Shown here: piece by piece, positions 6,586-59,686 of the stretch
How positions within the stretch are numbered: position 1 is the stretch's first letter
Layout: each line of letters begins with the position of its first letter
DNA from: Polychytrium aggregatum
Taxonomy: Eukaryota > Chytridiomycota > Chytridiomycetes > Polychytriales
Length of the DNA stretch: 64,000 bases
Direction of reading: 5' to 3'
Assembly (NCBI RefSeq): GCF_025602895.1
Contig: NW_026516214.1
Coordinates: forward strand, 186,001 to 250,000
Notes under the pieces: model-generated
Told to the model about the DNA's origin: nothing
Seen by the model: the letters and a program-made list of their open reading frames with translations, nothing else
Databases searched by the model: none
Translations under genes and position numbers: made by a program

Positions 6586-8465
6586 ATGGACTACGATCGA
6601 GTGACCCAGATCCGCGCCAAGGCCTTTGCCCATCTGGATGAGGCCCAGTTCGGATGGTTTCATCTGCGTGCGATCCTGGTGTCCGGCGTCGGTTTCTACA
6701 CCGACTCGTACGACAACTTTGTCATCAACCTGGCCTTGCCCATGCTCTACCATGTCTACTTCCCCAAGTCGCCCGATCTGCAGTATCCCTCTGATTTCCC
6801 GCAAAGGAACCCCAACTATGACGCCTGGATGAAGGCTGCAACTTCCTATGGGAACCTCTTCGGTCAGTAGATCGCGCCGCCCGGACTCCAACTGGCGGAT
6901 CGGAACAGGAGAGGTGGCGATTGGATGCGTCCGTCGAGCGGGATTATGCACAGAGCATCTCAGGGATTCTCTGTTTGTGAGGCTCTCATAGGGCCGGTTG
7001 GATCGGCTGCGTTCCCTGTGGCACCTGTCATTTCGCGACCTGTCTGGGGGTGACATTACGCACCAGGTTCGCCTTCTTAACCAGGGGGCTATGTCAGATT
7101 TTGTGCTGCTGATATACGCGAGCTTCGGCGCTCTACTTCGCTCATATAATCTGACGGATTTGCTCTGTCACTACTCCGCATATTGCAGGCCAACTGAGCT
7201 TCGGTTACCTCGGCGACAAGCTCGGCCGCAAGAACATGTACGGTGTCGAGCTCATGATCATGATTGTCTGCACCATCGGCTCGGCCTTCTCGGCCAGCGC
7301 TATCCGCGGCGCCAACATCCTCCAGACCCTGGCCGTCTGGCGCTTCTTCCTCGGCATCGGTATTGGCGGTGACTATCCTCTCTCGGCCATCATCACCTCC
7401 GAGTTTGCCAACGTCAAGTGGCGCGGCACCATGATCGCCGCCGTCTTTGCCATGCAGGGAATCGGAATCCTCACCGGCGGCCTCGTCACCCTCGCCACCC
7501 TCGCCGCCCTCCAGAACAGCATCCGCTCCGACCCGGCCTATCTCGACCTCGTCTGGCGCATCATCCTGGCCTTTGGTGTGATCCCTGCGATGGGTGCCGT
7601 GTACTTCCGTCTGACCATCCCCGAGACCCCCCGCTACACCGTCGATGTCATTGGCTCTGTCGACCAGGCCGAGCGCGATGTCGAGAAGGTCATGGCCCTC
7701 AACGCCACCCGCGATGTGTCGTCCAACTGGGTCGGCGAGGAGGTCGCCAACGGCACCCGTGCCAACGTCAAGAAGGGAGGATTCTGGGCGCACTTTGGCC
7801 AGTGGAAGAACGGCAAGATCCTGTTTGGCTGTGCCTTCACCTGGTTTGCGCTCGATGTCGCCTGGTATGGTCTCTCGCTCAACGCCAGCACGATCCTGAC
7901 GCTGATCAACTGGAACGGCTCCAACTCGCTCCCTCCGTACGACAACTACTGGCAAAAGACCGTCGGCCAGGTCATCATTGCATGCATGGGCACTGTTCCT
8001 GGATACTGGGTCTGTGTCGCCCTGATCGACCGCATGGGCCGCAAGCCCATCCAGTACCTCGGCTTTGCTGTCATCACCGTCTGCCTCCTGATCCTCGCCA
8101 TTGCCTGGGACACCATCAAGAACAACACTGTCGCCTTCTGCGTTGTCTTCACGATCGCCCAGTTCTTCTTCCAGTTCGGCCCCAACACCACCACCTTTGT
8201 TGTTCCTGGTGAGGTCTTCCCGACCCGCTTCCGCTCCACCGCCCACGGCATGTCTGCGGCAATGGGCAAATTGGGAGCCATCATCGGTGTCGAGGCTGTC
8301 GGTCCCTTCTTCAGCATGAATCCAAAGGCAGTCCTCTACGTCTTCACCGTTGTCATGGCCCTCGGCGGTGTTGCCACCTACTTCATCCCCGAGACCATGG
8401 GCAAGACCCTCGAGGCTCTCTCGGGCGAGGATGATGCCTTTGAGTCTCAAGAAACGATCCTCTGA
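6586..8465 (+). CDS. PHO84-like phosphate:H+ symporter (MFS), copy B
   Basis: Two exons: 6586-6862 and 7189-8465 (GTCAGT donor, TTGCAG acceptor), 517 residues. The intron sits at the same codon (Gly before QLSFGYLG) as in copy A, so the two genes share ancestry. Motifs: GDKLGRKNMYG loop, YTDSYDNFVINLALPMLYHV in TM1, GIGIGGDYPLSAIITSE, PGEVFPTRFRSTAHG and FIPETMGKTLEALSG. The C-terminal half matches the phosphate-permease consensus better than copy A does, and the protein ends soon after the last helix. If conversion was one-way, this copy could be the donor, but that is inference. Function by family: high-affinity phosphate uptake. Confidence 0.9.
7257..8034. repeat. Direct repeat copy 2: 778-bp near-identical tract in transporter B
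   Basis: Partner of 684-1461, with one mismatch in 778 bp. The tract starts about 70 bp inside exon 2 and stops within the codons after ALIDR, so conversion did not extend into the introns or the last third of the gene. Confidence 0.95.
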
Positions 8466-47214: not shown

Positions 47215-50200
47215 ATGAAGCTCCTCTCTGCAACCCTGTTCCTCTCCTCTCTCTGCCTCGCCCTCCAAGCTCAGGCCATGCCCAGCACCGGCTTCGTCCT
47301 GGAGGTGCGTGGCTGCATGCCAACCCAGCCCGCTGATTCCGGCCTGCTATGACCAGAGAAAATCGCACACACTGATGCAGCGTCAGTTTCGTTCCGCAGG
47401 AAGCCACCATCGCCGACATCCGGGATGCCTTTGCTGCCGAGACCTTGACCTCTGTCCAGCTCATCCAGGCATACATCGACCGAGCCTCGCAGGAGGTAAG
47501 CTGGCTGCAGTGTGTCCTTCTCTACCCGCTGTATTGCATCTTCGCGACCTCCGCCGCTTACATGCCTTGCCATTCTCCAACAGCCCTATGCCTCCCTCCA
47601 CTCCATCATCGAAATCAACCCCGATGCCGCTGCTCTGGCGCAGCAGGCCGACGATGAGGTGGGTGATCCATGTTCCCAGCCGCCTGCCGCCGACACTCTG
47701 CACGGGATCCTGGTGCCGATTACTGACCCGCGGTCACTTGTCGTCGGATGCAATCCATCGTTGCTGGCTTCTTGTCTACTTCCAGCGCGCTGCTTGCAAG
47801 CAGAAATGCTGCACTCTCCCGCACTTGCACGGCATTCCCATCATCCTCAAGGTAGGGTCCTGGTTCCGATGCATGGGCTTGCAACTCCTGTCATCGAACT
47901 GACTGACCGGAATGTCGATTCAGGACAACATTGCCACCAACGACAAGCTCAACACCACCGCTGGCTCGTTCGCCCTTCTGGGCTCCAAGACCGACGATGC
48001 CTTTGTCGTCCAGCAGCTGCGAAGGGCAGGTGCCATCATCTTTGGCAAGGTTCGTCCAACACACCTTCGGTGTCTGGTACGGGCGGCTATTCGTTCCTGC
48101 GTCGTCAATGGAGCCTAACGAACCCGTCCGCAATGCCGACCAGGCCAACCTCTCCCAGTGGGCCAACTTCCGATCGAACCTGACCAACACTTCAGGCTGG
48201 ACATCGCGCGGTGGCCAAACGATGGTGAGTGACATGTACGGCGGCTGTGGATACGCCAGAGGAGGCGTATCGGGTACTCAAGCGCTCTCATAACCCGGAA
48301 CATCCCAATCCTGCCGATGCTCCCAGAACCCTTATGTCCTCAACGCCACCCCGTGCGGCTCCAGCTCTGGTTCCGCCGTTGCTGCCACGGCCAACCTGGT
48401 CACCGTTGCCCTGGGTACGGAGACCGATGGATCCATCATCTGCCCGTCGTCGCTGAACGGCATTGTCGGCCTGAAGCCCACAGTCGGCTTCACATCCCGA
48501 ACCGGTGTTATCCCCATTTCGCACCACCAAGACTCTGTCGGTAAGGTCACACGGATGGTTTTTTGTCGCTTGTGGTCAGGAAAGGGCAATCGTCACCATT
48601 TGCGATCAGGCAACTTGGGGTGCCATCGATATTGTATTGGTCCTCGCCTTGGGACGCGCATGTGAATAACTGTTGTGGATGACCATCGTATCGTCATCTG
48701 CAGGGCCCATGGGACGCACCGTTGCCGATGTCGCTGCTGTCCTTGATGTGATCGTTGGCGTCGATCCCAAGGACTCGTCGTCGGCTCCAGGCAAGGGCAA
48801 GAAGCCCAAGAGCTATCTCAACTACCTCAAGGCCGACGGCCTCAAGAACGCCAATCTCGGCGTCGTCAATGCCTACTTTGACCCCGTCGGCGATGCATAC
48901 GAGTACGCCACGGCCAACCAGAGTCTCAGCGCCCTCTCTGACCTCGGAGCTCAGTTGCAGAACGTGGACCCCTCGGCGATGGACGTAAGTCGAGCGGGAC
49001 ATGCAGCATCTCTCCCTGTGCATACAGTCGCATCTTGCCGCCGCGCACACGATCCGGTGCCACTCGACCATGGTAGCGTTGGATACCCAGCAACATAATT
49101 CTATGTACTTATGCGTGCATATACGTGCCTTTCCGGCCACACTTTGATACTTGCTTGCATCTCGATCCTGGCGCAACTACAACTTGAATATGCAACCACA
49201 CGGATCCACGATCTAGATCTCGTTCGAGTTCCCCGTTCTCCTTGCCGACTTCAAGCAGGACATCCAGGCGTACCTTCAAACTATTGGCAACTCTCCGATG
49301 AAGAGTCTTGCTGGTGGGTCCTCAACGCACCCGTCTACGCCGGTTGTCGACATCCCATCCGCCATAGGACTCGACGTCTCACATTCGTACTTCCGCTCAT
49401 CACAGATCTGATTCAATACAACATCAACGACCCACGAGAGGAGAACAACATCTGGGGACAGGTGAGGGTCGGGCACAGATGACTGGCCCTACCGAGGTCG
49501 GCGTCCGTCTGCCATGCCTTCCTTCCATCACGCCCATTGTCTTTTATTGTCCCTCATCGTCTCATCGATGCTTCGTCACAGGAACTTTTCTTGCAAGCCG
49601 AGGCCACCAACGGATTCTCCGATCCAGCCTACATTCAAGGCAACCAGAACCGCACCACCGCCATCAACGTGTTCACCAAGGTATGGTTCGCTTTGAGACT
49701 CGGCAGTGTCTGTGGCACAGCGAAGCCTGGCGAAAACAATCCAAGCACAAAGGCGCAGACAGCCCTGTAAACGGACTTTGGTTCTGCTTAACCACCGTCC
49801 CTCCGTCATCTAGATCTTCAAGGACGGCCAACTTGATGCGGTCGTCGCCCCTGGGTTCTCCAACGTCGTCAGCTTGGCTGCAGTTTGCGGGTAGGTTTGG
49901 CTGTTCATGTGGCTCACGACAAATGGGACACTCTGATTTGTCCAAGTTTTGAACTCCCGCTCCCACCCCCTCGACATCTGCGTGCTTAACTGAAACCACA
50001 TCCCTACAGATTCCCTGTCATCACCGTCCCTGTTGGTCGATCGGACATCTACCTCGACGCCTACTTCAACGCGCTGCAGCTGCCCACCAAGGAGTTCCCC
50101 GTCGGCCTTGCCTTTGTTGGCTTGCCCTATACTGAAGATAAGCTGATCCAGGTTCGTGGCAATCAAGCTCAGCCGCTTCTCCGGCAGCTCGCCCGGACAG

Positions 50201-50787: not shown

Positions 50788-53700
50788 TCAGTTTCCAAGA
50801 TCCAACACATCGCCATGCTGACTGGGAAGCAGGCCAAGAATGTTTTGGATGTAGTCAACGAGCCGCTTGATAAACTGGTCAAACTCGGCGCTGGCAATCT
50901 TGTCGGCGTCGTTCACGTGCACTTCACCAACCCGGGTGGCCACCACAGGGCCGATCCAGCTCTTCTGCAGTGCAAGATCGGTCTGGATCCATGTGGCAAT
51001 GATGGGCTTCCTCTTGATGCGAGCATAGGTCAGCTCACCGCGGCAGTTGTCGGATTCGACATACTTGTTGTTGATGAAGGAAACGATTCCCTTGGATCCG
51101 TCGATGCCCGTTGCCATCTGATCGTAGATCTGTCCGCGCATCTGATCCAGATCCATCCAGCTGGCGATGCGAGAAAACGAGGGGGGGGGCGACAAGGACG
51201 AGTTAGACCTGATGCAGCCGTTGACTATCAACTCGACCTCGTCCGTGGCGGGGGTGCAGACTCAATAATGAAGTTGATATCAAAGGCGCAGAGACGAAGG
51301 GGCGCCCGCGGTACCATCAGGAGCACAGAAGCACTTACGTCTGGAATCCGCGAAGCTGCAGTTCGGCATTGACGCGAATGACAAAGCTCTGAGTCGACCA
51401 GCTGTAGCTCAAAAAGACATAATCCACTAAAGCCAAGGGAGATGACGCAAGTCAGGGACGCTGATGCCGCCCAGCTATCACGATCGGATGCAGTCGCATT
51501 CACAAGCAGCAACAAGGGACCGATCCAGCTGTCGGCTCAGCCGGTAAGTCACTTGCCTGCTTTCCAGCTCTCCTTGACGGCGATGGCATCTTGAATACTC
51601 TTGATGACAGTGGGGCTGGCAGGGCTTTTGATGCGATAGTAGAGCGATCCGCTGAGAATAAAGTCCGTGGCGCCGCTCATTTGGTCGATGCTTCCGTCGT
51701 CTGACTCCAGCAGACACGGAACAATCTTCTTTCGATGAAGGTTGGCATAGACCAGACACTTGGTGCACACGCTGTCCGCCATGAACGAAGCCGAAACCAA
51801 AGGGATGACCGCATCGGCTGCCCGGATTAGCGAGGCATCGAATTCGATTCCCTTGTGGATGGCCTCGACATCAAGGAACGACGGCTCCTTCGATCCGAGA
51901 CTCCAGCTGGGATGGAAGGTGAAAGAATACTCGGCGAATGGGTCTGCCGCTTGGGCTTGCTGGAGCTGCTGTGTCAGTCCAAGAGCGGTCTCTACGTTGT
52001 CGCGCGACACAACAACTGCAACACTGATGATGTCCTTGGCAGCCAAGGGATCCTGGAGGACCGGGCGAGGCGAAACGCAGTGGTGGAGCAGTGAGTTGAG
52101 GGCGAGGATCGATTTTCTCCGTGATTGCTGCCTTTCGCAAGACCATACTCCACCGCCCGTCACAAACTCGTACCTCGTCCTGGTCTTCGTCGTTTGTCGA
52201 CGCTGAGTTTTCCATATCCTCGATATCCTGGTCTGCGTTTTCTAGAGCGTTCTTTTGTTCCTCGATCGTGGGCTCCTCAATGTTGTCGGCAAGCTCCACG
52301 ATCTTGTTCAAGTTGGAAGTCCGTGATTCTGCAGACAGAGTCGCAGGCGGGGGCGGGAGGGGCGCTTCAGCCTCGTTGTCAGTGGGTGTGATGAAAGTCG
52401 TTGGTTTGGGAGGGACGGGTGGTGGGATCGAGTCCGAGTAAGGCGACGGACTCTGGGATTTGCTGTGGGACTTGGTGCGCGACATTGGGACTGGCTTCGA
52501 CTTGGTGCGGGACATGGAGACTGGCTCCAGCTGAGGGCGAGCACCCGAGCCCGGGCGTGACCTTGACCGACCCATCGAAGGCGACTCCGCCGCAGGCTCG
52601 GACTCAACCGGATCTGGTGGTCGCGGACCCGACATGGAAGCAGGCTTGGGAGGAACAGGCGGCGGACCTGTGCGAGCGGGCATCGGGAGGGCTGGGCGCT
52701 CGGTGGTGTCTAGACAAACGAGCGTGCGCATGTCAGCGTCGCGGATGTATACGCAACGGAGGCCTGCAGCGACACTTACCTGCCAGCATGTTCTTCATGG
52801 CGTAGATAGGCAGAGTGATGCCGCTCTCAATCTCCTTGCGGATCGTGGCCAGCTCGCCCGCTGCGATGCGACACGAAAGCTGCCTTACAAGGTCCATGCC
52901 CTTGCCAGTCGCCTGATCGACTTCGATGAAGGTGACAATCTCAGGCCCCAATCCTTGGAGGAACTGATGCGCACGCTCGGTCGAGATGAAGCGGCGGGAA
53001 TCGGTGGCATCGGTGCCGACGACCAAGAACGGAGCAATGTCCGGCTTGCTACCAGCTTTTTCTGCGGCCTCGATCTTGTTGCGGTACTTCATCACCACAC
53101 TCAAGAGCTTCCAGAGCGACTTGGAATCCGAAAGAGAAAACACAAAGACAAGGCACCCGGCGTCGTTGACTCGGCGGTCCACATCCATGTCGTCGACACT
53201 GATCTTGGCCACGTCGGTCGAGTTGGTGAACCGAACCACGGCCGAAGACTCCTCGCGCTCCTCGCCGACAACAGACCGCACGATCAGGATGGACTTGGCG
53301 GTCTCTGCAGGGCATGGCCGTATCAGGAGGAGGACGACCCCAGTGTGAGTGCTCCGCGGTAGCAGCAAGCGGTCCAGCGATGGCGATCTGGGCAAACCCT
53401 CGAAGGAGATCCAATGACCAAGCCACACCGACAAAGCAGGCAGCAGAAGTATCGGCAAAAGGCACTCACCGTTTCGAGGGAGATTCGACTGTGTGGCTCT
53501 TCCCAGGGTCTCGATGAGGCCTGGGACGATTCTGGCCATGCAGCGAATCGTGGTGTCAGGGACCCAGCTGCTGTATCGGAGCTGCCCTACCTACCGCCCG
53601 CCCTCTTGGCCTTCTCAGCGAGCGGTCTCGCCGTTGCACTGTAGAGTCAACTCGCAACATGCTGCTGCGAAAACGGAGCACGATGCACACTTACCGTTTA

Positions 53701-54475
53701 GCAATCTCCAGCTTTTGTGAAGCAACAAAAATGGGTGTCAGTGAAAAAATACGCTGGACAATCTGGCGGATGGTGTATTTTCTCGGACTCAGGTCGCTGT
53801 TGTGGAGGGTGTTCGGGAAGGACTGCACGTCGCTCTTTTTTCTCATGCGCTCTGCAACGGTGCCGACGAAGACGGGTTGGACAACGGCCTGGAACTGGTC
53901 CATGAGGTCGACGGCGTGCTCCCACTGGTACAGCCGAGGCGGAGAAAATGACGAGTCAGTCAGTGGGTCAGGCCGCTGTGCGAGCGTGCGCCTGGCGAGA
54001 GAGCTCTAGCTTGCGGTGCAGCAGAACATGCAGTGTAGCCCGGGCAACATTACATCGAGGAACAGCTTTTCTTCTTCGGTCATGATCTGAATGCGTTTCA
54101 TGTCGGCTTCAGCAATGAGGAGCACAACAACGGACGAGTGGCGGATGCCCTCGACGTACTGCAGATTGACATCGACGCCCTTCCACTTCATGCAAGTGTG
54201 GGGCAGGAACGAGTGGACGGGCCGGTCTTGGAATGAGCTCTCGGAGAGCTCGTTTAGCAGCAGGAAGGCAAAGTTTGTGGTTGTTCGGCGTTGGCTACGG
54301 GAGGCAAGGAGCAGCTGTCAGAGACATGGACGGGAACTCGGGCACGGACGACGAGCGGGGAAGCTCCGGGATGCAGCCCGCCAGTGGCCATCGCTGGCGA
54401 TGCGACTTGCCTGATGTAAAAGTCATGAACCGAGACGCCCTTGGTGCACACCCAGGGACCCTTGGTGTCGCTCAT
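50788..54475 (-). CDS. Multi-TIR protein: TIR-like / degenerate Ras-like / PxxP linker / TIR-like / TIR
   Basis: Nine exons, all in phase: 54475-54411, 54294-54015, 53924-53695, 53531-53470, 53304-52780, 52709-52174, 52127-51557, 51426-51339, 51160-50788; 909 residues. Three introns use GC donors. Residues 8-190 look like a TIR-type fold: VHDFYISQRRTTTNFAFLLLNEL, GIRHSSVVVLLIAE, WEHAVDLMDQFQ...VQPVFVG. Residues 210-375 resemble a small GTPase (AGCLVFVFSLSDSKSLWKLL, FLVVGTDATD) but lack a GxxxxGK[ST] P-loop and NKxD. Residues 388-575 are a disordered linker with two PPPVPPKP motifs, typical SH3 ligands. Residues 590-750 are TIR-like (AADAVIPLVSASFMADSVCTKC). Residues 757-890 are a good TIR: DYVFLSYSWS box 1, GFQTWMDLDQMRGQIYDQM, and NNKYVESDNCRGELTYARIKRKPII. 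Glu828 in NCRGE sits where TIR NADases keep their catalytic Glu; the second unit has Cys there. Function is unknown. Confidence 0.8.
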
Positions 54476-55175
54476 GGCTGTTGGAAACGATGGGGCAGTG
54501 AAGACGGGGTCTGGAGGAGATGGAAAGTCGAGCAGCCAGCCTCAGAGGACGAGAGATGGTCCAGCAGATGAGGAGGGCGAAGAGGAGACGAGGGACAGGA
54601 AGGTTTGGCGAGACAGACCCGGCGCAAGGGAGGGACAGCCGCGGCCGGGAGACGCGTCGCTGGCCACCTGGCTGTGGCTGGCATGCTGCAGAGAGCGGTT
54701 CCAAAGCAGCGATCAACCATCACATCAACCACCGAACATCATCCATCACATCAACCACCGAACATCATCCATCACATCAACCACCGAACATCATCCATCA
54801 CATCAACCACCGAACATCATCCATCACATCAACCACCGAACATCATCCATCACATCAACCACCGAACATCATCCATCACATCAACCACCGAACATCATCC
54901 ATCACATCAACCACCGAACATCATCCATCACATCAACCACCGAACATCATCCATCACATCAACCACCGAACATCATCCATCACATCAACCACCGAACATC
55001 ATCCATCACATCAACCACCGAACATCATCCATCACATCAACCACCGAACATCATCCATCACATCAACCACCGAACATCATCCATCACATCAACCACCGAA
55101 CATCATCCATCACATCAACCACCGAACATCATCCATCACATCATCCACCACATCATCAACCATCAACCACCGCAC
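54476..55175. promoter_or_regulatory. Shared divergent promoter, TIR gene / XLF, dominated by a minisatellite
   Basis: 700 bp between the TIR protein start (-) and the XLF start (+). The XLF-proximal two thirds is the 26-bp tandem array at 54721-55136, leaving about 240 bp of unique sequence next to the TIR gene. Confidence 0.75.
54721..55136. repeat. 26-bp minisatellite, 16 perfect copies
   Basis: Sixteen head-to-tail copies of CACATCAACCACCGAACATC plus ATCCAT, apparently identical, with partial copies on both sides (from about 54713 and to about 55172). There are no spacers, so it is not a CRISPR array. The unit lacks stop codons in all three + frames, producing three long overlapping artefact frames of 282-391 codons. 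Confidence 0.97.
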
Positions 55176-56940
55176 ATGGACGACCGCCTCGCCAAGCTGC
55201 CGTGGCAGACCATCCGGTCGTGCACCCGCACAGACTCGGGCGAACGACTCCGCCTCCACCTCAAGGCCCACTTTGCCCAGGACGAGTTCGTTCTGCTGGC
55301 AACCGACCTCTGCGACTGGTGGCATACCCGCTACGACGCCGACAGGGTCGCCACAGACGTCGATGTAAGAGCGATCGCTGGTCCGCCCCGCCTGGGTGCT
55401 GCTTGTGCCCAGCTCGCTGCTCACCAACGACAACGTCTCGGTCGGCATCATCGGTCGGTCCGTGTGCTGTCAGGTCTATGCCAAAGAGCTCGCATCAACG
55501 GACATGAAGGATCTCTTTCTACTCTTGAAGAACCTTCTCCAGCCAGCGGACCCAGACGGCACGCAGCACAGCATCACCATCGCCGATCATGGCCATGTGA
55601 GTCTCGATCTGATTGAGCAGCGCCTCAGCTGGCCAGTCGTTGTCATGTCCCATGATTAATGGAGCAGGTATGCACCTTCCCGACGAAGCAGCTCCTGGTC
55701 GAGGCCAAGGGCCATGTGGACCGTGAGCGGCTCCTCCCGATCGAATTCACGTTCCGGCTCGATCGCTTGGACAGCTCGACCGACCCGAGACTGGGCGACA
55801 TGGTCACCACGCATGTCACCCTGCCACTGATGCTGATGGCAGACGAGTATCGCCTCCGGTCCCAGCGCCTGAGGGGCATGCTTCGCGAGTATGCCCGTGA
55901 GCTGAGGGACCTGCAAGATATCGTGGCCCGCCAGGGCATCAGAGCACCAGGCTCATGTAAGTGCATCGTATTGGATTCTATCGCCGTTGTCAAATGCTTG
56001 GTTGTGCAGCCGGATGTCTTTGCCTGCATGGATGATTCTGTGCCATGCTATCGTGCTGACGCAGTGCCTGGACAATCGCCGCCGCCCGCACGATCGATCT
56101 CAGTCGATGTCAACGCAAGCGATCTCGACGACCCTGAAGCACCATCTGAAACGGTACAGATACGATAGCGCCTGTAGGCAATGCCCCGCACGATGCGATC
56201 CACCAAAGCGCATACTGATTTCCTCGAATCGTGGCCGCCTTCCAGGATCCAGTAGATCCCCGGACACATCCCGAGAACATCATGAAGTTCTTCCGGGGCG
56301 ACGAGTCCCTTTACCAGTCTTGTTTGGCCAGGATCCAGGACAGCTCGACGACCACCGCCACTGGACAGATCGACCGTCTCCGCAGCCTCGAGCGAGGTGG
56401 GTAGGATTCCGGGTACCCGTTCGGCTTCGCACACACTCCTTTCTTCTCCAGCAGAAGGTTGTGCTGCTCTAAAACCACATGCGTCGTGGCAGATATCGAT
56501 TTGGGGGCTCCGTCCCGTGGGCCCAGAAACGGGCCTAGTTCGCAGCAAGAGACTTGGACATTCGACTCCTTGAGCATGTTCCAGACAATGGAGACGGCGA
56601 GTTTGCAGTCGCAGCGGAGCGCGCTGGTCAACGAAGACCGCCAGGTACAGTGTTTGCAGGCGGAGCCTGTCCACGACGACATCAGGCAAGGGTGTTCGGA
56701 TCCTGGCACTGGAAAGCCTGGATAGGGGAAAGCAACGGCGGGAAGGTTTGCTGCTGACCCCTTGGGATTCCCATCGACCTTTCGAAGCAGGCCAACTCGA
56801 CCACAGGGGCGCCAGCAGAGCCTCCAAAGCCGGCAGCAGCAACCAAGCCGAAGCGCACCGTCGTTGACTTGGAGACACTGCAGCGACGGGCCGAGGAAGC
56901 GGCGCAGAGCCAGGCGAAGCGACCAAAGAAGCTTGTTTGA
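55176..56940 (+). CDS. NHEJ1: XLF/NHEJ1 (Nej1-like) end-joining factor
   Basis: Scaffold of non-homologous end joining that pairs with XRCC4-ligase IV and Ku. Six exons: 55176-55364, 55474-55596, 55668-55956, 56253-56396, 56550-56644, 56791-56940; phases agree, 329 residues (human 299). Head domain: LPWQTIRSCTRTDSGERL, DEFVLLATDLCDWWHTRYDADRV (compare human YALLVSDLQQVWHEQVD), AKELASTDMKDLFLLLKNLL, then LLPIEFTFRLDRL. A long helix follows (LMLMADEYRLRSQRLRGMLREYARELRDLQDIV), matching the XLF coiled coil. The tail is disordered and ends in a basic cluster, AKRPKKLV, resembling the XLF Ku-binding motif. Exons 4-6 are less conserved and their borders are the weakest part. It is divergent from the TIR gene. 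Confidence 0.86.
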
Positions 56941-57873: not shown

Positions 57874-59686
57874 TTACAGCTCATCCGAGGCATCCGACTG
57901 CTCGTTTTGCTTGTGGATCCAGTCGCGAGCATAGATACTGGCCTTCATGTACTTTCGGGCGGCATACTTCTTGAAGAGCCCCTCGTGCTTGGTGGGGCGG
58001 CTCAGATAGGCAATCATTAGGGCAGTGATGTTCTGGAGCTCCGCTTCGCGGTATCCAGAGTAGTGTACCAGATTGGCGTCCCAGTCGTGGCGGCCGAGCA
58101 TGCGGCGGGCAAGGTACAGGGAGCCGGCGGCGACCTGCGAAGGAGGGAACTCCAGGCAGCGGTATTCAATCAGCGCGACCTCCATCAGGTACTTTGCCAG
58201 AGTGCGACTCTGGATATCGTATCCGTCGGCCTTGGAGGCACGGCGGAGGAAAGAGAGAGGCGAGGGGTATTGGAGGGAGAAGTCCAGGACCTGCAGGACA
58301 TAGCGCTCGGCCTTGATGACTTCGTCGTCGGTGTACGTTCCGCCAGCAAGCTGGATGAAATAGCTCACGGACGGAGCACAGACTTCCTCGTACTTTGCAG
58401 CAATGAAGAGCGCCGTCAGGCCGACAAGCTGCAGCTTGATGAGCGAGACGATTCGGAGGGACAGGAAGCGATCCACAATGTTGATGGCAAGGAAGAGGGT
58501 TTCCGGCAGCAGCTGGAACTTGTTGTGGACATCGATCATCCAATCGATCAGGATGCCGCGCATCTTCCACGCAAGCTCCTTCTGGTCGTCCATATAGTTG
58601 GCGTTCGGCAGTGTGTTTTTCTGTGGCGGTGCAACAGACAGCATCGATGGGAACGGTGTTAGTCGCTCGGAAGTGGATATATGGACATCAGAGGGGCCAA
58701 GATGTTCCACGGGCAATCGGCACAACGACACGGAAACAATCGGCACAGCAGCATGACAGCGCGACAGCAAAGGCGGCTCGACAGTATGACATCATACAAG
58801 CGTGGCGAGACACACCTCAAGCTCCTTCATGTACTCAAAGATCTCGCCGACGTATTCCGTGACCATCATCGGGTCATCGGCCTCGGGGGCGTCGAGATCG
58901 TCCCACTCGGGGGCGGCGGGTTGGATCTTGGCCCTCTTCTGGGCAGGCTGATCGGTGTCCATGGGGTCCTCAAGGGGATGGACGTTAGTCTTTTCATGGC
59001 GCACCGGAGCGGGGGCAGCAGTCTCGGCGGCATGGTGGGCAGCTTTGGGCACGGGGATCTGGGTTCGCTTGACAGGAGGGCGAGCCACCTCGGTGGCATT
59101 CTCGTTTCTCGATCGGAGGGCGCGACGCTGCGGCTGCTCGGGGGCGCCGCTCTCGGCCTTGACTTCCTCGGCGGAGGCGGCTGCAGTGCGGGTAGAAGGA
59201 GCACGGTGGACGGGAGCATGGGTATCTTCATCCATCTTGGGGTCAGCGTTCTCCTCGGCGGGAGGGCGCGAGGGTTTCAGCGAGCTCTTGACGGGGGGCT
59301 TTTCGCCAAGCGGTGCTCGCTGAGCCTGTGTGCTGATGTTGTTGCTGACGGACGAAAGGGCGGCCCGGGAGCGAGTGCGCGAGGCAACCTCGCCGCCCTT
59401 GAGGTTGGCAAAGGCATTAAGGGCCATCTTGGTGGCAGGAAGATGCTTGTGGGGGATAGCATTGGTGGAGTCCTTGACGGAGACTTTTGTTTTGAGTGCC
59501 GGGTTCAGGCCGACGTTTTCGTCGTTCACGACGGAGCGGAGCGAGCTTAGCGTTCGCCGGGTGCGTGGCTGGATCTGGATGACATCGCGGTCGAGAGATT
59601 AGCGAACAGGCCAGAGCAGCACGAGGGCATCGAGCGATGGGGAGTATCGATGCAAAAACAGAGACAACGAGTACCTGAGTTGTCAT
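57874..59686 (-). CDS. G2/mitotic B-type cyclin
   Basis: CDK1 regulatory subunit driving entry into mitosis. Three exons: 59686-59675 (only MTTQ), 59574-58816, 58620-57874; 505 residues. The cyclin box starts near residue 265 with WKMRGILIDWMIDVHNKFQL (the MRAIL motif), then PETLFLAINIVDRFLS and KLQLVGLTALFIAAKYEEV. The C-terminal cyclin fold has EKYVLQVLDF-like ERYVLQVLDFSLQYPSPLSFLRR and SLYLARRMLG. The N-terminus contains a destruction box, RAALSSVSN (RxxLxxxxN), at about residue 70, and a basic PVKRTQIPVPK stretch. These fit APC/C-dependent turnover and nuclear import. The four-codon first exon is supported by an in-frame GTACTC donor and GTCATCCAG acceptor. A second acceptor six bases on would drop IQ. 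Confidence 0.93.

Follow-up and report, generated by a model that had tools for sequence, protein, structure and literature searches.

What kind of protein is encoded at 54475-50788 on the minus strand of the window, by which we mean the whole analysed stretch of 64,000 nucleotides from the chytrid Polychytrium aggregatum, and what might such a protein do in a fungus? A preliminary description, made from the sequence alone, read there nine exons coding for three TIR-type modules, a degenerate GTPase-like domain and SH3-ligand motifs. No match for this triple-TIR/Ras-like order was found, by title and abstract opening, among the papers listed under the topics of TIR with pseudoGTPase, tandem or three TIRs, and GTPase with TIR. 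As far as the available part of a 2026 preprint goes, fungal TIRs are almost absent from its eukaryote set and all come from Rhizoclosmatium globosum (PMC13142454), while the accessible text of a 2025 survey has counts of NLRs per Chytridiomycota species that begin at one (PMC12258605). TIR has been reported in Chytridiomycota NLRs, with four sources cited, next to TIR-like effectors in the NLRs of Pezizomycotina (PMC9815663, in part); one of the sources cited there for chytrid TIR-NLRs, PMC7075850, names fungi once and chytrids never in its available portion. Excerpts of other papers state that no NLRs were found in chytrids (PMC4986451), give HET-type receptors for fungi (PMC9153377) and tabulate TIR_2 in a survey of fungal domains (PMC4102429).

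The coordinates, strand and consistent phases of the nine exons given in the preliminary description hold. Joined by GT/GC-AG rules, they give 2652 nt of coding sequence and 884 amino acids, with the stop codon at 50790-50788. Exons 1-3 (53695..54475; all positions of this gene are on the minus strand) code for TIR1, exon 4 (53470..53570) for a linker that joins TIR1 to the Ras-like module of exon 5 (52780..53304, residues 213-387), exon 6 (52174..52709, residues 388-566), which is the least certain exon, for a proline-rich and acidic linker, exon 7 (51557..52052) for a divergent putative TIR2, and exons 8-9 (50791..51426) for TIR3. Beyond TIR, no Pfam domain above its cut-off was detected in the whole protein. 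Introns are 70-178 nt long, and donors are GT except for GC at exons 1 and 7. When donors were ranked, by leave-one-out, among the candidates in the window, that of exon 2 was weak (top 21%); it sits at an intron position common to paralogues. That the single-gene model depends on a pair of GC-AG introns and a weak donor is a point against our best explanation. The gene finder that we used is a simple model of codons and splice sites that had learned from long frames and also from the splice sites of this very gene, and for that reason it is no independent test of the nine-exon model. None of its four settings returned the exact model. Three of them gave one gene with exons 2-5, 7 and 8 exact and parts of exons 1, 6 and 9, with a start shifted upstream of exon 1 and a piece of exon 6 removed, so that the first PPPVPPKP motif was lost in all three and both copies in one; this last setting also shortened exon 9 and ran into neighbouring genes. 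The fourth and strictest setting divided the gene into three.

It is improbable, in our estimate, that two genes are present instead, one with TIR1 and the Ras-like module (exons 1-5) and the other with the linker, TIR2 and TIR3 (exons 6-9). The in-frame Met codons that exon 6 has upstream, and a reading of exon 5 that reaches a stop 15 residues beyond its donor, are in accordance with such a split, as is the division made by the strictest gene-finder setting, although it falls at other places. Against it, the donor of exon 5 is among the best 0.01% of the candidates in the window and phases agree across the 70-nt intron between exons 5 and 6. Exons 7 and 8 possess no in-frame ATG from the upstream stop to the domain, so neither TIR2 nor TIR3 can start alone as a whole domain; this makes a break ahead of TIR2 or of TIR3 less likely and leaves room for one between exons 5 and 6.

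The presence of a TIR-type module at the N-terminus, as previously described, was borne out by comparison within the same genome (64.7 Mb, 418 contigs), in which numerous loci occur as pairs of equal score, which makes haplotigs likely; the triple-TIR gene, unlike these, was found in a single copy. Matches to the fungal chitin synthase N-terminal domain (13) and to radial spoke protein (8), both counted per exon, indicate a fungus that bears a flagellum, hence probably one of chytrid type. A Pfam scan of residues 1-212 gave no TIR match for TIR1. A profile of 10 same-genome paralogues, with the window left out, matched it over residues 8-175 with 102 bits, while the best of 1000 shuffles reached 5.8. 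In the search with the whole protein 19 other places, in nine groups of like-scoring copies, matched residues 1-187, and these single-sequence matches are weak (best E per group 7.1e-5 to 0.08, above 0.002 in eight of the nine). The family profile built from the window and ten paralogues matches SARM1 with E 2e-8 and plant Roq1 with 2.4e-4, gives a probability of 93.6 against the TIR3-type alignment, and aligns its family Glu with the Glu of SARM1 KEIVTAL, which we take to be the catalytic one. That Glu is present in all ten aligned paralogues and in 15/15 paralogue gene models (two of these, L035 and L036, seem to be the same gene in two copies). TIR1 has Asp102 (codon GAT) at this place, and the junction of exons 2 and 3 lies immediately 3' of the Asp102 codon. 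A phase-0 intron right after the catalytic codon is also found in eight of nine models of the UBA-TIR, TIR-only and TIR-NACHT classes (L029, L033, L037, L031, L032, L035, L036 and L038); the ninth, L034, has a donor-like GTGAGA at that spot which is read through in the gene model. In the NB-ARC-like class none of the six models has this intron. Judged by profile and intron position, TIR1 shares homology with the TIRs that the TIR-NACHT and UBA-TIR proteins of the same genome carry.

The preliminary description called TIRs rare in well-studied fungi, although in this genome they are not rare. We made gene models at 20 loci and scanned selected exons, which gave the combinations TIR-NACHT (NPHP3_N)-WD40 (WD40 was scanned in L034 and L041 only), TIR-NB-ARC-like-repeats, UBA-TIR (UBA E 1.3e-8, scanned in L037 only) and tandem TIR. 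NPHP3_N has 106 matches genome-wide, 90 of them near-full-length; these 90 include haplotigs, and 60 are distinct by E-value or 80 by E-value and frame length. For 87 of the 90 a same-strand TIR match lies no more than 2.5 kb upstream, and it is of module-1 type in 84 and of module-3 type in three (on C90, C320 and C223). The matches without an upstream TIR are C320:284, at a contig edge and with a look-alike on C90 that has the TIR, and two on C179. A search with one TIR of the NB-ARC-like class gave 70 places at E <= 1.1e-23, haplotigs included, and gene models cover six of them. The genome-wide search with the NB-ARC family gave 6 places only, which marks the NB domain of this second class as divergent, and it is termed NB-ARC-like here. 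The domain was detected in three of four scanned exons (E 5.7e-5 to 9.4e-8, two above the cut-off; L044 without), L045 and L048 being outside that scan, and the repeats that follow resemble TPR by eye. Among eight exons with a module-1-type TIR, Pfam TIR_2 was above its cut-off in one (L044), below it in five (L034, L046, L047, L029 and L033) and without a match in two (L030 and L037); the module-1 family is thus classified as TIR by profile and not by Pfam.

Some further features of these loci were observed. The C-terminal stretch of the UBA-TIR proteins L037 and L029 is weakly DUF7514-like (E 0.016 and 8.7e-5, both below cut-off), a weak SAM-like stretch precedes the TIR in the TIR-NACHT proteins L038 and L034 (SAM_2 E 0.0042 and 0.013, below cut-off), and L040 carries tandem TIRs after a long N-terminal part, both with a Glu by eye.

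TIR3 is, by its scores, plainly a TIR, and it has the usual Glu. It matches PF13676 (TIR_2) with 57.6 bits at a cut-off of 28, and a profile from four paralogues, with the window row excluded, with 74.1 bits, the best of 1000 shuffles reaching 5.0. The TIR3-type profile of five domains, window included, matches the chains of Cat1 (E 3.5e-10), RPS4 (1.5e-7), SARM1 (4.6e-5) and MyD88 (2.1e-4). In both inspected alignments, those with Cat1 and RPS4, the Glu of the C-x-x-E in this profile aligns with theirs, and E803 (codon GAG, 51034..51036) occupies that position in TIR3. The canonical TIR with a Glu was therefore correctly described, while the residue, previously numbered Glu828, is 803 in the present model. 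TIR3 is possibly an active enzyme. TIRs of this type are also found on the NACHT proteins L039 and L041 of the same genome. In a search for TIR3 relatives the prokaryote collection gave 40 pattern stretches and the viral one 39, none of them confirmed.

The assignment of exon 7 is weaker. Against TIR_2 the module scores 20 bits, below the cut-off of 28, and against the local TIR3-type profile 21.3 bits (best of 1000 shuffles 9.6), while comparison of the exon with the TIR3-type alignment gives probability 75 and E 2.5e-5 over 62 columns, in the second half only. In a single-sequence structure model (pLDDT 43.2) Foldseek gave no TIR among the best 50 of 72 matches, the best E being 0.24, and NCBIfam has no match for exon 7, nor for exon 5. 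Cys665 is at the Glu place, as expected from the description of a second module without Glu, and TIR2 is, on these profile matches, probably a decayed TIR. It had been proposed that a likely active TIR stands beside one TIR that lost its Glu; TIR3 does have the Glu, but TIR1, with Asp102, lost it too, which leaves a single possible enzyme accompanied by two pseudo-TIRs.

The module of exon 5 has no Pfam match. Its sequence resembles Rab7-like chains with E 0.04, and a profile built from three Ras proteins that this genome encodes matches it weakly with 7.9 bits, where its own shuffles reach at best 7.4 and those of TIR1 8.2. For a low-confidence single-sequence model (pLDDT 44.6) Foldseek gave a best E of 6.7e-4 and 11 matches at E <= 0.001, and the best 50 of 1265 matches were all Ras or Entamoeba Rho. 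A pattern search of residues 179-387 found none of P-loop, DxxG, [NT]KxD and SA[KL], the four nucleotide motifs of the Ras superfamily. The degenerate Ras-like domain without P-loop is therefore supported, with moderate strength, as a Ras-like module without nucleotide motifs. An active Ras superfamily GTPase was rejected since all four motifs are absent, and with these gone a binding module seems more likely than a nucleotide switch, which bears on the control by the GTPase-like unit that the preliminary description thought possible. No second copy of the module was found in the same genome at E <= 1.

Loss of the catalytic residues and of the GTPase motifs, together with the lack of a second copy at E <= 1, could also be attributed to a decaying gene under weak constraint in which TIR1, the Ras-like module and TIR2 are eroding. 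We hold this to be very improbable, as nine exons join without a stop or frameshift and TIR1 still reaches its 102 bits.

The linker of exon 6 carries PPPVPPKP, as described, at residues 403-410 (52642..52665) and 483-490 (52402..52425), and we take this motif to fit the class II SH3 ligand PxxPxK. Such proline-rich SH3-type ligands suit a scaffold. Together with the Glu missing in two of the three TIRs and the match of the TIR3-type profile to MyD88 chains (E about 2e-4), they are consistent with a non-enzymatic adaptor in which all three TIRs would only dock by TIR-TIR contacts, as in animal adaptors of the MyD88 type, and the Glu of TIR3 would be kept for structure. We consider this unlikely, though a possibility of some weight, because the Glu is retained in TIR3, whose profile gives better matches to Cat1 and RPS4 than to MyD88.

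The three scanned neighbours look ordinary: an amidase match on the plus strand (48670-49095), a cyclin match on the minus strand (57874-58644) and an XLF-like gene. The XLF-like N-terminus, from 55176 onwards on the plus strand, scores 24.5 bits, just below the cut-off of 24.6, with a query joined by eye. Between the start of the triple-TIR gene and this opposite-strand gene lies a 26-bp tandem repeat of 18.1 copies (54712-55177). Elsewhere in the window the first residues of two long plus-strand frames, 678-2003 and 7236-8465, agree by eye over some 60 positions, which may reflect a transporter gene duplicated locally.

Our best reading is that the triple-TIR protein may act as an adaptor or effector together with TIR-NLRs, one of its TIRs being possibly active and the other two pseudo-TIRs. 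That it belongs, as a multi-domain signalling protein, to the fungus's own TIR-based surveillance network is a tentative proposal, to which we would give a little less than an even chance. The proposal draws on the homology of TIR1 with its paralogues, the shared intron position, the TIR3-type TIRs on the NACHT proteins L039 and L041, the match of the TIR1 family to SARM1, and the matches of the TIR3 profile to Cat1 and RPS4 with the Glu aligned. The weak Ras-like and TIR2 matches, the weak single matches of TIR1 and the ordinary neighbours count against it. TIR1 would dock by TIR-TIR contact on activated TIR-NLR or UBA-TIR assemblies and docking would cluster TIR3, whose active site would form across TIR protomers; clustered TIR3 could then cleave NAD+ or turn it into a signal. 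TIR2 may be a non-catalytic TIR partner within the assembly, while the Ras-like module and the two SH3-type ligands would bind other proteins and position the complex. A wider version, which we regard as rather doubtful, is a TIR-based immune network as large as the TIR-NLR repertoires of plants with the triple-TIR protein as a shared downstream node, in which two pseudo-TIRs and a pseudo-GTPase would recruit and gate one NAD-consuming TIR. One flagellated fungus combines many TIR-NLR-type genes with a protein in which two pseudo-TIRs are linked to an intact one, and this makes testable whether TIR enzymes and TIR-TIR docking take part in the defence of fungi, and whether live TIRs are regulated by dead ones.

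Among known systems, BCAP is an animal TIR adaptor with proline-rich parts and a single TIR; it shares with the window protein the combination of TIR and proline-rich ligands in a scaffold, while order, partners and number of TIRs differ. The likeness to PF13676 proteins, Cat1 and RPS4 lies in the profile score of TIR3 and the place of its Glu, and that to SARM1 in the profile match of the TIR1 family, but the window protein differs from the TIRs of Cat1, RPS4 and SARM1 by three TIRs per chain, two of them without the Glu, and by the Ras-like module. Identity with SARM1 and an NLR/STAND receptor were both rejected, since a Pfam scan of the window protein at E <= 10 gave neither ARM or SAM nor NACHT or NB-ARC. 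The NLRs of Pezizomycotina likewise carry TIR-type modules in fungi, but their N-termini resemble SEFIR, by which they are set apart on the description in the available part of PMC9815663. Dictyostelium TirE shares two diverged tandem TIRs in a eukaryotic microbe and differs by RCC1 repeats, the available passage on it mentioning no Ras-like module or third TIR (PMC13142454). The fungal HET domain is TIR-like, a remote relative of TIR in fungal receptors, according to the accessible text of PMC4986451; PF06985 (HET) had no match in this genome, and none in the control either, so this search is uninformative. From the TIR-NLR-type proteins of its own genome the window protein differs by having no NACHT or NB-ARC match. 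With the TIR-NB-ARC-like-repeat proteins it shares a homologous TIR1, but the intron position of the window gene is absent there, while with the TIR-NACHT-WD40 proteins both the homologous TIR1 and the intron position are common.
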